Origin: Nonomuraea typhae
GTDB lineage: Bacteria; Actinomycetota; Actinomycetes; Streptosporangiales; Streptosporangiaceae
Assembly: GCF_009760925.1 (NCBI RefSeq)
Contig: NZ_VRLV01000001.1
Coordinates: 62,001 to 126,000 of the forward strand
DNA: 64,000 nucleotides
Reading direction: 5' to 3'
Under the pieces are notes generated by a model, which did not search any database, was not told where the DNA came from, and worked only from the letters and a program-made list of their open reading frames with translations. Positions 12,512-19,578 of this stretch are shown in pieces. Position numbers and translations under genes: made by a program. Each line of letters opens with the position of its first letter. Position 1 is the first letter of the stretch.

Positions 12512-15325
12512 TCAGATCGGGCCCAGCACCGGCAATCCGAGCTCGCCGTAGAGCGCGTCCCGCTCCTCGAGGGTGAATCGCGTCCACCGTCCGTGCGGGA
12601 GCACATGAGCCAAGGTCGTCGCCTTGTCGATGATCTCGAGCGCGTCGTCGAACCGGCCGAGCAGCCGGTGGGCGCGGGCCAGGAGGGCGAGGCAGCGGAG
12701 CTCCGCCGCGGCCTGGCCGGTCGTCCCGTGCAGGGTGATGGCGGCGTGCAGGTGATCAACGGCCTCCTGGGGGTGGCCGTCCGCGAGGCAGACCTCGCTG
12801 AGGAGCATCAGCACCGTCCCCTCATGCGCCTTGTCCCCGACCTCGAGAGCGCTGGAGAGCGCGGTCGAGAGCGCCTCTCGCGCGGCCTCGTGCTCGCCCA
12901 GTCTCTGGAGCGCGTATCCGCTCATGATATGCGCGTACCGGATACCCACCGCGGAGCCGATCTCCGTGGCGATCTCGAGCTGGGCGTCCGCGCACAGCCG
13001 GGCTTCGCGGAGCCGGTCGGCCTCCACGTAGAGATGCGCGAGGTTGCCGTATGCGCGTTGCTCGGCGAACCGGTCGTTCAGTTCACGTGCCAGGTCGAGT
13101 TCCACCTGGCGGTGCGCGGCCGCCTCGTCGAAGCGCTCCATGCGGGCCAGCCCCATCGCCATGTGCGCGTGGGCGTTCAGGGTGAGGACCGGGTCACCGT
13201 ACCGCTCGGCCACCTCGAGGGCGTGGCGGTTGCAGCTCACCATGTTGGTCAGGCGCCAGCTGGAGCCCTGGAACCACATGAGGGCGAAGACCAGATCGAC
13301 GCCGAGCCTGGCGATCGTCTCGTCCGAGCAGGACATGGCATGCGTCGCGGCGGCCATGAGATTGGCCTCCTCCGAATACAGCCACTCGCGAGCCTGCTTT
13401 CCGTCGCCCAGCGGAATGGGCGTGGCGTCGAGGCTCCGCCCCGGCGGTTGCGTGCGATGCGGGTCTATCAGGACGCTGGCGCGGCGGGCGGAGACGACGT
13501 AGTAGGACAAGGCTCTGATCGCGGCTTCGCGGGCTCCCGCGGGGTTCAGGCTCGCCGCGAACAGCCGGGTGAGGTCGTGCAGATGGAAGCGGTCGAAGTG
13601 CCCTCTCTCCAGGAGGTGGGCGTCAACCAGGCGGTCCAGGGCCCTGTTGGCCTCCGCGGCGGTCCCGCCCAGGAGCACGGTGGCGAAGTCCGGGGTCACG
13701 TCGGGCACGTGCAGGACGCCGAGCAGCTCCAGGAGCCGGGCCCCCGCCGTGTCGGCGGCTCGCCGGCTGTCTCGCATGGCGGTCCAGCTCGAGGCGAGGC
13801 TGGCGTGGACGGCCAGATCGCCGATCTGGAGCTCGTTGAGCCGCTCGCTGTCGTCGCTCAGCCTGTTGACGAGATCGGCGACGCTCCAGTCCGGATGATT
13901 GGCCAGCCGCGCGCCCGAGATGCGCAGCGCCAGCGGCAGCCCGCCGCAGAAGGCGACCAGGTGGCGGGTCTCCTCGGGATTCACGGCGACCCGCCGTGCT
14001 CCCGCCAGAGTCGCGAGCATGGCGGTGGACTCGGCCTCGGTCATGCTCTTGAGCCTGATCTGAACGCAGTCATCGCCGGCGATGAGGGTTTCCCTGCTGG
14101 TCACGATCACGCTGACGCCGAGGGGGGCGTAGAGCAGGGGGTTGATCTGGTGGATGTCGGCGGCGTCGTCCAAGACCACGAGCATTCTTCTCCCGGCGAT
14201 CTGGCTGCGCCACAGGGCCGCCGCCTCGTCCAGATCGCTGGGCACGTTCTGGGCGGGCACGCCCAGCCCGCGCAGGAAGCGGGCGATGACGTCGTGGGGG
14301 GACAGCGCCCGCACGCCGACGGTCTTGCCGCGGAGGTTGACGAACAGTTGCCCGCCCGGAAATGCCTCGATGACATCGTGGGCGACCTGGAGCGCCAGAG
14401 CCGACTTTCCGATCCCGGGCGGCCCGGTGATCGCGACCAAGGGGTGCGGGGGCTCGTCTTTCTCCGGGACGAGGAGTTCTTTCACATAGACGAGTTCCTT
14501 TGTCCTTCCCGTGAAACTGATGAGCTGGCGCGGAAGCTGGCGGGGGACGTCGGGCAGTTCCGTATCCGTGTTGCGGAGGATGAGTTCGTGACAGCGCCGC
14601 AGACCCTCGCCGGGGCCGACGCCGAGTTCCTCCACGAGGATGCGGCTGCCTTCGGCGAAGACCTCCAGAGCGTCGGCCTGCCTGCCGCACCGATGGAGGG
14701 CCGTCATGAGCAACTCGCGAAGCCGCTCGCGCAGCGGATGGTGCGGTAACGCGTCCTGAAGGCAGGTGACCGCCTCCTCCGGCCGGTTGAGCTTGAGCAG
14801 CAGATCCGCACGTTGCTCGAGCGCGGCGGTGAGGAGCTCCTCGAGCCGCGAGCGTTCGTTCTGCCCGAAGGGGCCGGGCACGCCGGTGAGCGGGACGCCC
14901 TGGGGGAGGGCCAGCGCCTGTTCGATCAGCCGGAGAGCGCTGGGGTGGTTCCCCTGCTCCTCGAAGAGCCGGGCTTCGGCGGTGAGCGAGGTCAGCAGGC
15001 GGGAGTCGATGTGGCGGGGGTCGATCCGCAGCTGGTATCCGCCGCTTCCGCCGACCAGCACGGTGGGCTGCTCGCGCCGGCCGCGCACGGGTTCGAGCGC
15101 ACGGCGAAGCCCGGCGACGTAGGTGTAGATGCTTTGTTCCGCGCTGCGCGGGGCGCTGCCTCCCCAGATGCCGTCGATGAGGCTGCTCATCGGTACCACG
15201 TGCGGGGCGCGGGTGGCGAGGATGGCCAGGACCGCCTGCTGCCGGGGCGGCCCCGGGTCGAACGGACCGGCGGTCGTCGATCCGCCCACCGCGCCCAGAA
15301 CACGGATCTGAATATCCGATAACAC
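12512..15325 (-). CDS. AfsR/SARP-family regulator with NB-ARC ATPase and TPR domains (copy 2)
   Basis: 937 residues from the GTG at 15325, which has GGGGG six bases upstream and gives an N-terminus (IQIRVLGAVGGSTTAGPFD) that aligns with copy 1. Upstream ATGs at 15358 and 15436 lack a ribosome binding site. Domains are as in copy 1: winged helix, BTAD, NB-ARC with GPPGIGKSALALQ and MLVVLDDAAD, then TPRs. Shared blocks such as APHVV, RSAEQ-IYTYVAGLRR and GDLAVHASLASSWTAMRD show a common origin. A TATATT box on the minus strand at 15378-15383 may be its -10. Probably an activator of secondary metabolism; targets unknown. Confidence 0.88.
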   Translation of the reverse strand: MLSDIQIRVLGAVGGSTTAGPFDPGPPRQQAVLAILATRAPHVVPMSSLIDGIWGGSAPRSAEQSIYTYVAGLRRALEPVRGRREQPTVLVGGSGGYQLRIDPRHIDSRLLTSLTAEARLFEEQGNHPSALRLIEQALALPQGVPLTGVPGPFGQNERSRLEELLTAALEQRADLLLKLNRPEEAVTCLQDALPHHPLRERLRELLMTALHRCGRQADALEVFAEGSRILVEELGVGPGEGLRRCHELILRNTDTELPDVPRQLPRQLISFTGRTKELVYVKELLVPEKDEPPHPLVAITGPPGIGKSALALQVAHDVIEAFPGGQLFVNLRGKTVGVRALSPHDVIARFLRGLGVPAQNVPSDLDEAAALWRSQIAGRRMLVVLDDAADIHQINPLLYAPLGVSVIVTSRETLIAGDDCVQIRLKSMTEAESTAMLATLAGARRVAVNPEETRHLVAFCGGLPLALRISGARLANHPDWSVADLVNRLSDDSERLNELQIGDLAVHASLASSWTAMRDSRRAADTAGARLLELLGVLHVPDVTPDFATVLLGGTAAEANRALDRLVDAHLLERGHFDRFHLHDLTRLFAASLNPAGAREAAIRALSYYVVSARRASVLIDPHRTQPPGRSLDATPIPLGDGKQAREWLYSEEANLMAAATHAMSCSDETIARLGVDLVFALMWFQGSSWRLTNMVSCNRHALEVAERYGDPVLTLNAHAHMAMGLARMERFDEAAAHRQVELDLARELNDRFAEQRAYGNLAHLYVEADRLREARLCADAQLEIATEIGSAVGIRYAHIMSGYALQRLGEHEAAREALSTALSSALEVGDKAHEGTVLMLLSEVCLADGHPQEAVDHLHAAITLHGTTGQAAAELRCLALLARAHRLLGRFDDALEIIDKATTLAHVLPHGRWTRFTLEERDALYGELGLPVLGPI

Positions 15326-15519
15326 GCCGAACCCCCGTGGCAGCCCGTCAGGTGCCATCCAGGCTATTGCTTTTTCGGAATATAGGAGGAATGTAGACGC
15401 CTCCGTTACGGTGAGGTCCTTGCGTGCTGGGGGCACGCCTGGATTGGTGGCTCACGCCCTGCCCAGCCGCGGAGAGTGCGGTCTCCTGCGAATGGGCAGA
15501 ACGGGCCAAGCCAGTGTGT

Positions 15520-15663
15520 CTAACAACAAACTGGGGTGTCGAACCACGAAGCGGAAACTGGTCCTGATGGCGTTCCGGCATTGGCCGCCGTAGCATTGCC
15601 TCCAACAACCACCACGGTTGCGATCACGGCAGCTACTGCGGACATGGCAAGACGCGTGCGCAT
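15520..15663 (-). CDS. 47-residue secreted peptide, candidate signalling pheromone
   Basis: ATG at 15663, stop TAG at 15520-15522. GAGGGAG ends about 8 nt upstream of the ATG. The product begins MRTRLAMSAVAAVIATVVVV and continues GGNATAANA, a textbook Sec signal peptide with an Ala-Asn-Ala cleavage site near residue 29. It leaves an 18-residue tail, GTPSGPVSASWFDTPVCC, ending in two cysteines. It is divergent from the XRE-TPR regulator gene with 60 bp between the start codons. The Sec signal, tiny mature part and TPR-regulator neighbour match the layout of RRNPP-type peptide/receptor pairs. That function is inference; a short exported peptide of other use is possible. Confidence 0.65.
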   Translation of the reverse strand: MRTRLAMSAVAAVIATVVVVGGNATAANAGTPSGPVSASWFDTPVCC

Positions 15664-15723
15664 GGGGGGTTCTCCCTCGCCTGTGTGTGATGCTCGGATA
15701 CATCTTTTCAGGGAGCGGCAGCA

Positions 15724-17007
15724 GTGACCACATCTGACCTGGTTGGTCTGCGTATCAAGACCGTGCGACGACAGCGTGGCCTCTCACAGGCCCAGCTGGC
15801 GCATCCCGAGTTGTCGGACAGCTACGTCTCCTTGATTGAGAGCGGCAAGCGTACCCCTACTCCGGCGGTGCTGGAGCTACTCGCCCAGAAGCTCGACTGC
15901 TCCCTGTCCTACCTCGTCAATGGCGTCACCGCCGAGCAGATGGAGGACATCGAGCTCGCCCTTGGTTACGCGCGTCTGGCGCTCGAGAACGGTGAGGTGG
16001 CCGAGGCTCGCACCCGCTTCGCCGAGCTGATGGCGGACAACAACCTGACAGGGCTGACGGCACTCCGTCAAGACGTGCAGTACGGGCTCGCCCTCGCCAC
16101 GGAGGCATGCGGCGACCTCGACGAGACCATCGCGATCCTCACCCGGCTGGGCGAGGAGGATCTGCCCCAGGAACGCACGATCGAGGTCGCGAGCGCGCTC
16201 GTGCGCGTGTACCGCTCCAGCGACCGCCTGACCGAGGCCGTCGAGGTCGGTGAAGCCATTCTCGGCGCGAGCAACAAGCCGGCGTGGTCCGACATCCTCG
16301 TCGAGCTCGGGGCGAACCTGCTGGCCGTCTACCTCTACCGCGGCGATCTGCTGCGGGCGCGTCAGTACGCCGCCGAGCTGCTCAACGCCGCCGACGCCCT
16401 GGGCACACCCCGCTCCACGGTGGCGGCCTGCTGGAACGCCTCCGTGGTGGCCGAGGCCCTGGGCCACGGCGAGGAATGCCTGGCGCTGGCGGAGCGGGCG
16501 CTGGCCGTGCAGTCGGAGAGCGGTCAGCCGCGCAACCTCGCCCGCATGCGCCTGGCCCTGGCCTCGCTGACCCTCAAGATTCGCCCGGAGGCCGCCGACG
16601 AGGTCCGCGCCCTGGTCCAGCGTTCGATCAAGGAGCTCGCGGAGACTTCGGCCAGCACCTTCGACCGCGGCCACGGCCTCATGGAGCTCGCGAGGGCCGA
16701 GATCGTCGCGGGCCTGCCCGGGGAAGCCGCCCTGCACGCCGCCGAGGGCCGCGACCTGTTCCCCACGAGCGCACGCCGCGCCGAGGCGGAAGCGCACCTG
16801 CTGCTGAGCAGGGCCTACACGGCGATGAGCCGCCCGGGCGAGGCCGCGGCCGAGATCGACGCCGTCAGGGCCTGGCTGAGCCCGATGCCCGACTCGCGGG
16901 TCGCCGCCGGCACCTGGTTCGCCGCTGCCGAGGGGATGGAGCAGCTCGGCGACACAGAGGGCGCCGTGCACGCCTACAAGAGGGCACTGGCCTCAGCGGG
17001 ATTGTAG
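15724..17007 (+). CDS. XRE-family helix-turn-helix regulator with TPR domain (RRNPP-like)
   Basis: 427 residues. Residues ~6-65 form an XRE/Cro HTH (LRIKTVRRQRGLSQAQLAHP, then SYVSLIESGKRTPTPAVLEL). The remainder is all-helical TPR repeats in ~40-residue steps, e.g. ALGYARLALENGEVAEARTR and ALGHGEECLALAERALA. This is the architecture of peptide-sensing RRNPP regulators such as PlcR, NprR and Rgg. GTG start with GGGAG nine bases upstream. The 60-bp gap to the divergent secreted-peptide gene must hold both promoters, so the regulator probably controls the peptide gene. Orphan XRE-TPR proteins are common in actinomycetes, so the peptide link needs experiment. Confidence 0.88.
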   Translation: MTTSDLVGLRIKTVRRQRGLSQAQLAHPELSDSYVSLIESGKRTPTPAVLELLAQKLDCSLSYLVNGVTAEQMEDIELALGYARLALENGEVAEARTRFAELMADNNLTGLTALRQDVQYGLALATEACGDLDETIAILTRLGEEDLPQERTIEVASALVRVYRSSDRLTEAVEVGEAILGASNKPAWSDILVELGANLLAVYLYRGDLLRARQYAAELLNAADALGTPRSTVAACWNASVVAEALGHGEECLALAERALAVQSESGQPRNLARMRLALASLTLKIRPEAADEVRALVQRSIKELAETSASTFDRGHGLMELARAEIVAGLPGEAALHAAEGRDLFPTSARRAEAEAHLLLSRAYTAMSRPGEAAAEIDAVRAWLSPMPDSRVAAGTWFAAAEGMEQLGDTEGAVHAYKRALASAGL

Positions 17008-17059: not shown

Positions 17060-17605
17060 ATGAATAGATCCCCGTTCGCGGCCCTCACCGCGACTCTCGC
17101 CGCCCTGCTCGTTCTCGGCACCGCCGCTCCCGCTCTGGCGCACGACGCGCTGCGCGCGAGCAACCCGGCCAAGGACGGCACGGTCACGTCCGTGGAGCAG
17201 GTGACGCTGGAATTCACCGCCAAGGTGCGCATGCCGTTCGTCATCGTGAGGGGTGACGGCGGCCAGTTCCACCAGGGGCAGCCGGTGCTCGACGGCAAGG
17301 TGGTGAAGCAGGCCGTCAAGGGTCCGCTGGCCGACGGGAAGTACGTCATCGCCTACCGGGTGGTCTCCTCCGACGGCCACCCGATCGAGGGTGAGATCCC
17401 GTTCACGGTCAAGGGTGGTGCCAAGGCGGCGGCGACCCCGGTGGCCGCGGCCCCCAGTGCGCCGGCCGCGGACAAGCCCGTGCAGGCCAGCGCCGAGCGG
17501 AGCGGAGGCGGGGTCACGTTCCCCATCTGGCTGATCATCGTGGTCGGCGCCCTGGCGGGCATCGGGATCGGATTCCTTCTCAGCATGCGGAACAAGAAGC
17601 CGTGA
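17060..17605 (+). CDS. copC: CopC-domain copper-binding protein
   Basis: 181 residues. Sec signal peptide ending APALA, so the mature protein begins with His (HDALRASNPAKDGTV), the classic CopC N-terminal Cu(II) ligand. The CopC beta-barrel follows, with ADGKYVIAYRVVSSDGHPIEG including the conserved Asp-Gly-His. After an Ala/Pro linker a C-terminal membrane segment (LIIVVGALAGIGIGFLLSM) anchors it outside. ATG 17060 is preferred over 17039 because the signal peptide begins there. The stop overlaps the GTG of the CopD-CtaG gene by four bases, so the two are made together for copper capture and transfer. Confidence 0.92.
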   Translation: MNRSPFAALTATLAALLVLGTAAPALAHDALRASNPAKDGTVTSVEQVTLEFTAKVRMPFVIVRGDGGQFHQGQPVLDGKVVKQAVKGPLADGKYVIAYRVVSSDGHPIEGEIPFTVKGGAKAAATPVAAAPSAPAADKPVQASAERSGGGVTFPIWLIIVVGALAGIGIGFLLSMRNKKP

Positions 17606-19578
17606 CCAGGACCGTGCGGATGGCGCTCGCGGCGGTGGCCGCCGCGATCGCCGGGCTGGTCATCGCACTGGTCGCCGGAGGCGCGGCGTTCCCGCGCATC
17701 ATCCCCGGCATCCCGGCCGCCGACGCGCTCACGCGCTGGGGGCTGCCGATCTCCAAGCTGGGCATGGACGCCGCCGCGGTGGCGACGATCGGGCTGCTGG
17801 TGGTCGCGGCGACCCTGCTGCCCAGCGACAAGGGCATGCTGGGCAAGAGCGCGCTCGGCTACGTCCGGGCGGCGTCGTGGGCGGCGCTGTCGTGGGCGGG
17901 GTTCGCGTTCCTGCTCATGCTGTTCCAGCTGTCGGACCTCTACACCGACTCCGTCGCCAACGTGGTGCTGAAGAACTACATCCCGAGCTACGCCACGCAG
18001 GTCGGCAACGGGATCGCGCTCACGCTGGTCATCCTGTTCGGGGTGGCGATCGCGCTGTTCTCGCGCGGCGCCATCACCGCGGGCTCCGCGGCGGGACTGC
18101 TGGCGCTCGGGCTGATCGCGCTGCTGCCGCCGGCGCTGACCGGGCACGCCTCCTCCTCGCCCAACCACGACCTGGCCACGGCGGGGCTGTCGCTGCACCT
18201 GATCGGGCTGGCGATGTGGGTCGGCGGGCTGATCGTGCTCGTGATCCACGCGATCCGCAAGGCGCCGCAGCTCGAGCAGGCGTCGGCGCGGTTCTCGCGG
18301 GCGGCGTTGTGGTTCTACGTGACCGTGGGCCTGTCGGGGCTCCTCAGCGTGATCGCCCGCCTGACCGCGGTGTCGGACCTGTGGACCTCCAGCTACGGCG
18401 TGCTGATCGTGGCCAAGATCGTGGCGTTCATCCTGCTGGGCTACATCGGCTGGTACCACCGCCAGCGCACGCTGGTCGCGATGGAGGCGGGCAAGCCGCG
18501 TGCCTTCATCCGGCTGGCGGCGGGGGAGACGCTGCTGATGTTCGCCACCGTCGGCCTGGCGGTGGCGCTGTCGCGCACGCCGCCGCCCGTGGTGAGCCTG
18601 CCCGCCGACCGCGCCTTCGAGCTGCTGGGCTTCCCGATGCCGCCGCCGATCTCGCTGGCCAACCTGGCCTCGATGTGGTGGCTCGACCTGTTCTTCGCCG
18701 CCGTCGCCGCCGTCCTCGCCATCCTGTACGGCGCGGCCGTCTACCGCCTGATCCGGCGCGGCGACAAGTGGCCCTGGGGCCGCACGGTGTCCTGGTTCGC
18801 CGGCGTCGTCATCCTCGTGCTCGCCACCCAGAGCGGCGTGGCCCGGTACGCCAAGGTCATGTTCAGCGTGCACATGGTCGAGCACATGACGCTGTCCATG
18901 ATCGTCCCGATCTTCCTGGTGCTGGGCGCCCCGGTGACGCTGGCGCTGCGCGCGCTGAAGCCGGCCGTCCGGCGCGGTGACCGCGGGCCGCGCGAGTGGC
19001 TGACGACGATCCTGCACAGCCGGGTGGTCAAGGTCGTCACCCATCCGGCGATCGCCACCGCGATCTTCATCGCCTCGACCTACGCGTTGTACTTCACGCC
19101 GCTGTTCGCGGGGGCGATGGAGGAGCATCTCGGGCACATCGCGATGACGCTGCACTTCCTGCTGAGCGGCAGCCTGTTCTTCTGGGTGATCATCGGCGTG
19201 GACCCGGCGCCGCACAAGCTGCCGTACGTGGGCCGCCTGCTGCTGTTGTTCGTCACCATGCCGTTCCACGCCTTCTTCGGCATCGCGCTGATGATGATGG
19301 GCACCGTGCTGGCCGCCGACTGGTACGAGCAGCTGGGCCGTACCTGGGGCGGGCCCTTGCTGGCCGACCAGAACAACGGCGGGGCCATCGCGTGGGGCTT
19401 CGGGGAGATTCCCACCTTGATCGTTCTGCTGGCGATCGCAGTACAGTGGTACCGCGACGAGGACCGGACGGCACGCCGCGAAGATCGCCGTGCCGACCGG
19501 AATCCCGCAGGGGACGCCGCGCTCAACGATTACAACGAGTATCTGGCAAAGCTCAACAAGGCCGACAAGGGGGAGTGA
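17602..19578 (+). CDS. CopD - CtaG(caa3-type) fusion, copper import and cytochrome oxidase assembly
   Basis: 658-residue membrane protein made of two known families. Residues ~1-330 are CopD-like, with HLIGLAMWVGGLIVLVIHA and ARFSRAALWFY, and are associated with copper uptake. Residues ~350-640 are CtaG of the caa3 type, which inserts copper into cytochrome oxidase, with VHMVEHMTLSMIVPIFLVLGAP and FHAFFGIALMM. About 16 membrane helices are expected. The GTG start overlaps the copC stop (GTGA). This fusion is common in actinobacteria, and the pair should move copper from CopC through the membrane to oxidase assembly. Confidence 0.92.
   Translation: MTRTVRMALAAVAAAIAGLVIALVAGGAAFPRIIPGIPAADALTRWGLPISKLGMDAAAVATIGLLVVAATLLPSDKGMLGKSALGYVRAASWAALSWAGFAFLLMLFQLSDLYTDSVANVVLKNYIPSYATQVGNGIALTLVILFGVAIALFSRGAITAGSAAGLLALGLIALLPPALTGHASSSPNHDLATAGLSLHLIGLAMWVGGLIVLVIHAIRKAPQLEQASARFSRAALWFYVTVGLSGLLSVIARLTAVSDLWTSSYGVLIVAKIVAFILLGYIGWYHRQRTLVAMEAGKPRAFIRLAAGETLLMFATVGLAVALSRTPPPVVSLPADRAFELLGFPMPPPISLANLASMWWLDLFFAAVAAVLAILYGAAVYRLIRRGDKWPWGRTVSWFAGVVILVLATQSGVARYAKVMFSVHMVEHMTLSMIVPIFLVLGAPVTLALRALKPAVRRGDRGPREWLTTILHSRVVKVVTHPAIATAIFIASTYALYFTPLFAGAMEEHLGHIAMTLHFLLSGSLFFWVIIGVDPAPHKLPYVGRLLLLFVTMPFHAFFGIALMMMGTVLAADWYEQLGRTWGGPLLADQNNGGAIAWGFGEIPTLIVLLAIAVQWYRDEDRTARREDRRADRNPAGDAALNDYNEYLAKLNKADKGE

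Follow-up and report, generated by a model that had tools for sequence, protein, structure and literature searches.

A gene for a short, predicted exported peptide beside an HTH-TPR regulator gene in Nonomuraea typhae: a candidate peptide pheromone cassette of Actinomycetota

In a 64,000-nucleotide stretch of the Nonomuraea typhae genome (RefSeq assembly GCF_009760925.1, contig NZ_VRLV01000001.1, positions 62,001 to 126,000), hereafter called the window, a gene for a helix-turn-helix (HTH) protein with tetratricopeptide repeats (TPR) is located divergent to an open reading frame (ORF) for a short, predicted exported peptide. This raises the question whether the peptide is the signal of the adjacent regulator, as the initial annotation had proposed by analogy to the RRNPP quorum-sensing systems. 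Comparative evidence was brought to bear on this proposal and supports it. We consider it likely that the two genes encode an RRNPP-like exported pheromone and its intracellular HTH-TPR receptor, and the pair seen in the window is a member of a much larger family.

The gene pair and its conservation in the family

The propeptide gene is located on the minus strand (15663-15520) and comprises 47 codons from an ATG start to a TAG stop, preceded by a ribosome-binding site (GAGGGAG; 15678-15672, minus strand) that is kept at most same-genus loci. Its product, MRTRLAMSAVAAVIATVVVVGGNATAANA followed by GTPSGPVSASWFDTPVCC, begins with a predicted Sec signal peptide of 29 residues (15577..15663, minus strand), which consists of an RTR n-region and a hydrophobic core and ends in ATAANA. 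The predicted exported tail, GTPSGPVSASWFDTPVCC, has 18 residues (15523..15576, minus strand) and closes with two cysteines (CC; codons at 15523..15528, minus strand). Signal peptides were called throughout by an in-house hydropathy rule instead of SignalP; by this rule a basic n-region, a hydrophobic core and an Ala-x-Ala motif are conserved across the propeptides of relatives. The regulator gene on the plus strand (15724-17007) has a GTG start and a ribosome-binding site (AGGGAG; 15710..15715, plus strand) that is conserved in most loci. Its 427-residue product, the predicted peptide receptor, contains a Pfam HTH_3 domain at residues 11-64 (15754..15915, plus strand; 43.6 bits, cut-off 23) and a TPR_14 match (29.1 bits, cut-off 23.5). 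In an AlphaFold2 model with a pLDDT of 91.1, helical repeats form a superhelix of residues 70-424 (15931..16995, plus strand), which is the predicted peptide-binding part. The coordinates of the short ORF, the length of the HTH-TPR protein and the 60 bp between the two starts were all as the initial annotation had given them. The regulator scored above no NCBIfam cut-off and does not qualify as a member of the NsdA family of TPR-like regulators (NF053720), for which it reached 18 bits where 75 are required.

Conservation in the genus was analyzed in a search of 59 genomes, 36 of which, including that of the window, belong to the same genus. All 36 contained a full-length regulator ortholog (59-100% identity) and, divergent to it, an ORF of 43-51 codons with a signal peptide and CC directly before the stop, with 56-64 bp between it and the start of the regulator gene. 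Among named GTDB genomes, a scan yielded 229 confirmed loci, and the best 80 of these were evaluated further; they derive from Nonomuraea, Sinosporangium, Microbispora, Planotetraspora, Acrocarpospora, Herbidospora, Streptosporangium and other genera. A divergent peptide ending in CC was present at 78 of the 80 loci. The two exceptions (L123, L129) belong to Streptosporangium and carry a homologous propeptide gene at the corresponding position whose product has a different tail, a pattern shared by seven relatives (L141-L144, L147, L148, L153). Eight of these nine tails, for example WSYPD, WGYPI and WNHPG, contain both Trp and Pro, the tail of L144 being without Trp. In Spongiactinospora (L100), the entire cassette is present as a tandem duplicate with two different tails; the two receptors are identical at 369 of 431 residues and at 67 of the first 70.

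Not every genome carries the system: a class-wide sample gave a receptor match at an E-value of 1e-30 in 74 of 394 genomes, and no match in at least 20 of those from the window's own family. The class-wide search gave 103 places, of which 95 were examined; seven of the eight left out were of a peptide-less paralog type by E-value.

Peptide tails and receptors across Actinomycetota

The initial annotation had called the Cys-Cys end unlike random translation. Besides the 36 same-genus loci, a chance control bears this out. Among short ORFs of the exported type at 176 unique receptor loci, CC was the ending of 118 of the 143 that lie upstream of and divergent to the receptor gene, compared to 2 of the 141 found in other parts of these sequences. 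The corresponding Fisher p of 1e-51 overstates independence, because the rows include many close relatives. A cleaner test is offered by other families, as the CC rule had been formed in the home family and was then applied to them. In the eight other families in which this type was encountered, 50 of 57 receptor loci had a short exported-type ORF with CC within the last 12 residues, located upstream and divergent, downstream and convergent or, once, upstream and co-directional. The search for the short ORF in relatives that the initial annotation had suggested therefore succeeded not only within the genus, but also in families without the window's neighboring genes. No CC-type peptide was found in families f5 (one locus), f39 (two loci) and f20 (23 loci, where the single CC label, L259, is a false positive). 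Over 227 receptors, 142 were labeled CC, 29 Trp-tail and 56 none, with 40, 6 and 27, respectively, in the home family (f1); the Trp-Pro label is a loose one, defined once the tails had been seen, and one of its rows (L247) is doubtful. Examples of tail ends are PDWPGMCC, SPGDFCC, HPPTCC, GPPTCC, RTVWCC and GGIWCC. Four genomes of family f21 (L156, L160, L163, L164) encode, downstream of the receptor gene, an additional propeptide that differs from the first and likewise ends in CC, preceded by Phe or Tyr.

Family f27 has genomes of 1.5-2.2 Mb, 9 of 121 with a receptor match, and a locus GC content of 0.47-0.50. All nine full-length receptor loci counted here had a CC-type peptide, in some of them with residues following CC. 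The CC-type loci of these small genomes (L210, L211, L213, L214, L228-L233) have a GC content near 0.48.

In a phylum-wide sample, receptor matches were obtained in 10 of 396 genomes, including the window's own. Exported-type peptides from other classes (10 of 12 loci) end in GYPWPK, GFPWPK, SFPWGGT, SFPGP, KWPWG, NWPHVP or NWPHH. Distant receptor matches were also present in 19 of 121 genomes of family f20, which is probably Streptomycetaceae. At seven of the 21 places concerned (L250, L253-L258), an exported-type peptide with the ending IDWP, IEWP, TDWP or IGWP is encoded in the same direction as the receptor, 239-375 bp upstream of it. Two others have a Trp-Pro motif repeated inside the propeptide, and a clear peptide candidate was absent at the remaining 12 of these Streptomyces-type places. 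The peptides of the first seven may represent another dialect of a system of this type. The propeptide of L217 repeats NWPDPM and that of L218 repeats DIEWP, for which pheromone precursors with repeated signals may be compared.

Mapped onto a receptor tree (FastTree; several long branches), peptide type changed 22 times, compared to 73.8 changes after shuffling, and none of 200 shuffles gave a number as low. The tree contains one clade of 15 peptide-less receptors. A paralogous HTH-TPR clade occurs in the same genomes (L044-L047, L197, L198, L201, L204, L206-L209; also contig C11 of genome G000, near 120700), and no recognizable exported peptide was found beside its members. These peptide-less sister receptors speak for the alternative that the regulator senses something else, e.g., a metabolite or stress, and that the peptide is a secreted effector encoded by one of its target genes, the more so as divergent neighbors are often regulator targets. 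This alternative, which we regard as unlikely, is opposed by the fact that tail type tracks receptor type even where the position of the peptide gene changes, and by the parallel divergence of tail and TPR described in the next section.

Divergence of the tail and the receptor

Selection was analyzed with 89 Streptosporangiaceae peptides picked for their CC ending. Absence of change at CC in this set is by construction, because the peptides were chosen for it; CC conservation derived from dN/dS was therefore not used as evidence, and the locus counts given above (36 of 36, 78 of 80) carry that point. The 8-10 residues ahead of CC are hypervariable. Positions -3 to -10 showed an entropy of 3.2-3.7 bits, the signal peptide mostly a lower one, and Ala was present at residue 29 in 71 of the 89 relatives. 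For 32 independent close pairs, dN/dS was 0.51 in the signal peptide and 0.76 in the tail, where uncertain alignment inflates both dN and dS. For the same pairs, the regulator gave values of 0.01 for the HTH part (residues 1-70), 0.21 for TPR residues 71-270 and 0.32 for TPR residues 271-427. Despite changes in tail length, the reading frame is intact from the signal peptide through CC. Three loci (L006, L008, L057) encode propeptides identical in residues 1-37 that differ at several of the 10 positions before CC.

A small exported product with a fast-evolving tail and a Cys pair could also be an antimicrobial, a toxin-like peptide or the precursor of a ribosomally synthesized and post-translationally modified peptide, which is controlled by the adjacent regulator and varies as a consequence of an arms race. 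The near-frozen HTH, the faster TPR and the association of tail and TPR better fit a ligand-receptor pairing, and the same receptor type accompanies the peptide across its different positions; we thus rate this explanation as improbable.

The association was determined with Mantel-type permutation tests on 82 non-redundant loci, using the eight residues before CC. Uncontrolled, tail distance correlated with every other measure (0.28-0.45), which is what relatedness is expected to produce. With signal-peptide, synonymous and other-segment distances controlled for, partial correlations with each of three TPR segments were 0.087-0.120 (permutation p 0.002-0.004), and no correlation with the HTH was detected (r -0.060, p 0.96). 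The initial annotation had proposed to check whether the last residues vary with the TPR pocket; at these loci there is a weak association with the TPR and none with the HTH. Given the small size of the effect, and because Mantel tests may be liberal, we take this association as support for, and not proof of, a pairing of tail and TPR.

Neighboring genes, proposed mechanism and known systems

Downstream of the regulator gene, the window contains genes for an exported protein with a CopC domain (Pfam CopC; 17060..17605, plus strand) and a CopD/CtaG membrane protein (Pfam Caa3_CtaG and CopD; 17602..19578, plus strand), each of which has homologs at 79 of the 80 named-genome loci. Together with CC at 78 of these loci, this would agree with a secreted copper- or redox-active peptide whose cysteines bind copper or form disulfides outside the cell, the regulator co-regulating copC and copD/ctaG without any pheromone sensing. 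However, where CC-type loci occur in other families, CopC or CopD/CtaG homologs were not found within flanks of about 1.5-2 kb, which means that these neighbors change while the peptide-receptor pair stays. Conversely, the Streptosporangium-type loci have the copper genes and yet tails such as WGYPI and WNHPG without CC, and distant pairs carry Trp-Pro tails without Cys. The copper explanation also leaves the variable tail and the link between tail and TPR unaccounted for. A general defining role of copper was rejected, since pairs of other families have no copper genes in these flanks; as an alternative to pheromone sensing we retained it, with a low probability.

On the other side, the propeptide gene is followed at a distance of 83 bp, on the same strand, by a gene for an AfsR/SARP-like NB-ARC-TPR regulator (Pfam BTAD and NB-ARC; 12512..15436, minus strand, start set by the longest ORF). 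It is an optional neighbor, with homologs at 32 of the 80 named-genome loci, and is possibly cotranscribed with the propeptide gene. Cys-rich leader peptides exist in mycobacteria. With two Cys codons preceding the stop and the AfsR-like gene next on the same strand, the short ORF might be a regulatory leader, either a Cys-codon attenuator or an upstream ORF, the peptide product being irrelevant. This we consider highly improbable. The ORF encodes a conserved signal peptide that evolves under coding constraint, the short gene is located upstream or downstream of the receptor gene depending on the locus, and Cys-free tails stand in for CC in related lineages. In addition, no terminator-like stem was found at 15380-15800 (0.2 expected by chance) and no Rfam match was obtained, two results with little power.

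A phage or plasmid origin of the pair was rejected. The 17 pattern matches among IMG/VR viral contigs included no confirmed relative. Receptor matches in mobile-element records comprised one fecal contig deposited as a phage and 16 plasmid records. In the seven of these 17 that were examined, a CC-type peptide was present beside the receptor only in a Nonomuraea record, and the pair was taken as mainly chromosomal on the basis of these matches. This Nonomuraea record, NZ_LT559118.1 (L221), is an 11.85-Mb Nonomuraea gerenzanensis sequence with only 10 annotated features that is filed as a plasmid in PLSDB. The contig deposited as a human fecal bacteriophage, MT836207.1 (L227), carries a partial receptor near L182 of family f28 (end branches 0.13 and 0.14) and is probably bacterial DNA.

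For the pheromone-receptor pair, the conserved features suggest the following course. The propeptide would be exported via Sec and cut by signal peptidase, as its signal peptide implies, and the signal would be the tail or, judging from conservation, its last 6-10 residues ending in CC. The peptide would re-enter the cell, presumably via an oligopeptide permease, and bind to the superhelix formed by the TPRs of the neighboring regulator, altering the regulator's DNA binding. The closest target of the receptor is probably the intergenic region of 60 bp (15664..15723), the presumed shared promoter and operator, so that the pheromone gene would be under feedback control. Further candidate targets in Streptosporangiaceae are the neighboring copC and copD/ctaG. 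No sigma-70 consensus was found around this region, and reading by eye revealed no clear palindrome in its alignment. At regulator codons 2-4 (15727-15735), synonymous conservation was 0.82-0.88 compared to 0.25-0.44 expected (57 loci), a pattern that may reflect an operator or an initiation signal.

The available excerpts of an RRNPP survey describe a computational signature with a receptor of 250-500 amino acids that has TPR matches and an adjacent propeptide gene of 10-100 codons at a distance of -60 to 400 bp, the propeptides having a Sec signal except for SHP and PrgQ; according to the same excerpts, Firmicutes and viruses were the only groups analyzed (PMC10075063). The pair in the window agrees with this signature in its 427-residue receptor with TPR and HTH, its 47-residue propeptide and its distance of 60 bp. 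Among RRNPP receptors, Rap is not known to have an HTH domain. The closest resemblance is to PlcR-PapR of the Bacillus cereus group, likewise an HTH-TPR receptor adjoining a short exported propeptide gene. In a profile search of PDB, PlcR was the best HTH-TPR match (E 1.5e-9, spanning the HTH and the first TPRs); in Foldseek it ranked sixth, and fold matches, which are shared with unrelated TPR proteins, were rejected as proof of kinship. PlcR-PapR differs in the phylum, and in the actinobacterial pairs the peptide gene is usually divergent, the tail is mostly of the CC or Trp-Pro type and the receptor is longer (427 residues in the window). NprR-NprX and Rap-Phr have about 9-12% identity to the regulator, and a phosphatase or Spo0F-type role is not indicated here. 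The streptococcal Rgg-SHP and ComR-XIP systems are similar in having an HTH-TPR regulator beside a short peptide gene, and isolated ComR HTH chains were among the PDB sequence matches. For the propeptides SHP and PrgQ, no Sec signal is predicted (PMC10075063, in the same excerpts); the propeptides described here have a conserved predicted signal of the Sec type.

Within actinobacteria, ScbR and ArpA are TetR-type receptors of small-molecule signals, the gamma-butyrolactones, and are not known to be related by sequence to the HTH-TPR regulator. They share with the proposed system a function in population signaling, as described in the accessible parts of a 2016 review of actinobacterial quorum sensing (PMC4748050). 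These parts name gamma-butyrolactones and cyclic or modified peptides and, in a table, list "TPR" among the quorum-sensing-related proteins of some genera; a peptide assigned to an HTH-TPR receptor was not found in them. The actinobacterial terms looked for likewise do not occur in the portions of PMC9765709 at hand. In keeping with the earlier statement that comparable systems are hardly described in actinomycetes, we found no report of such a pair in Actinomycetota among the papers listed from an open-access collection with few subscription papers and no preprints.

The chances appear about even that the pairs together represent an undescribed, phylum-wide pheromone system of Actinomycetota, with one HTH-TPR receptor family, CC tails in many families of the class and Trp-Pro tails (NWPH, YPWPK, IDWP) in Streptomyces-type genomes and other classes. 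In this reading, the fixed CC could serve as a redox gate, the peptide being oxidized and inert or stable outside and reduced to its active form after import. In excerpts of two papers, BldK is named as an oligopeptide permease for an extracellular signal (PMC3543389, PMC4709908). It is a speculation that the Trp-Pro peptides are candidates for the signals thought to be imported through such permeases in Streptomyces.

The Actinomycetota are known for their antibiotics. If the proposed system is real, a phylum whose signaling is attributed mainly to small molecules would have its own peptide language, whose signals could be read from the genome and tested with synthetic peptides of 6-18 residues. 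Many orphan XRE-TPR regulators would obtain a ligand, which may provide simple inducers of development or of silent gene clusters, and more than 100 candidate receptor-ligand pairs would become available for studying the evolution of specificity.
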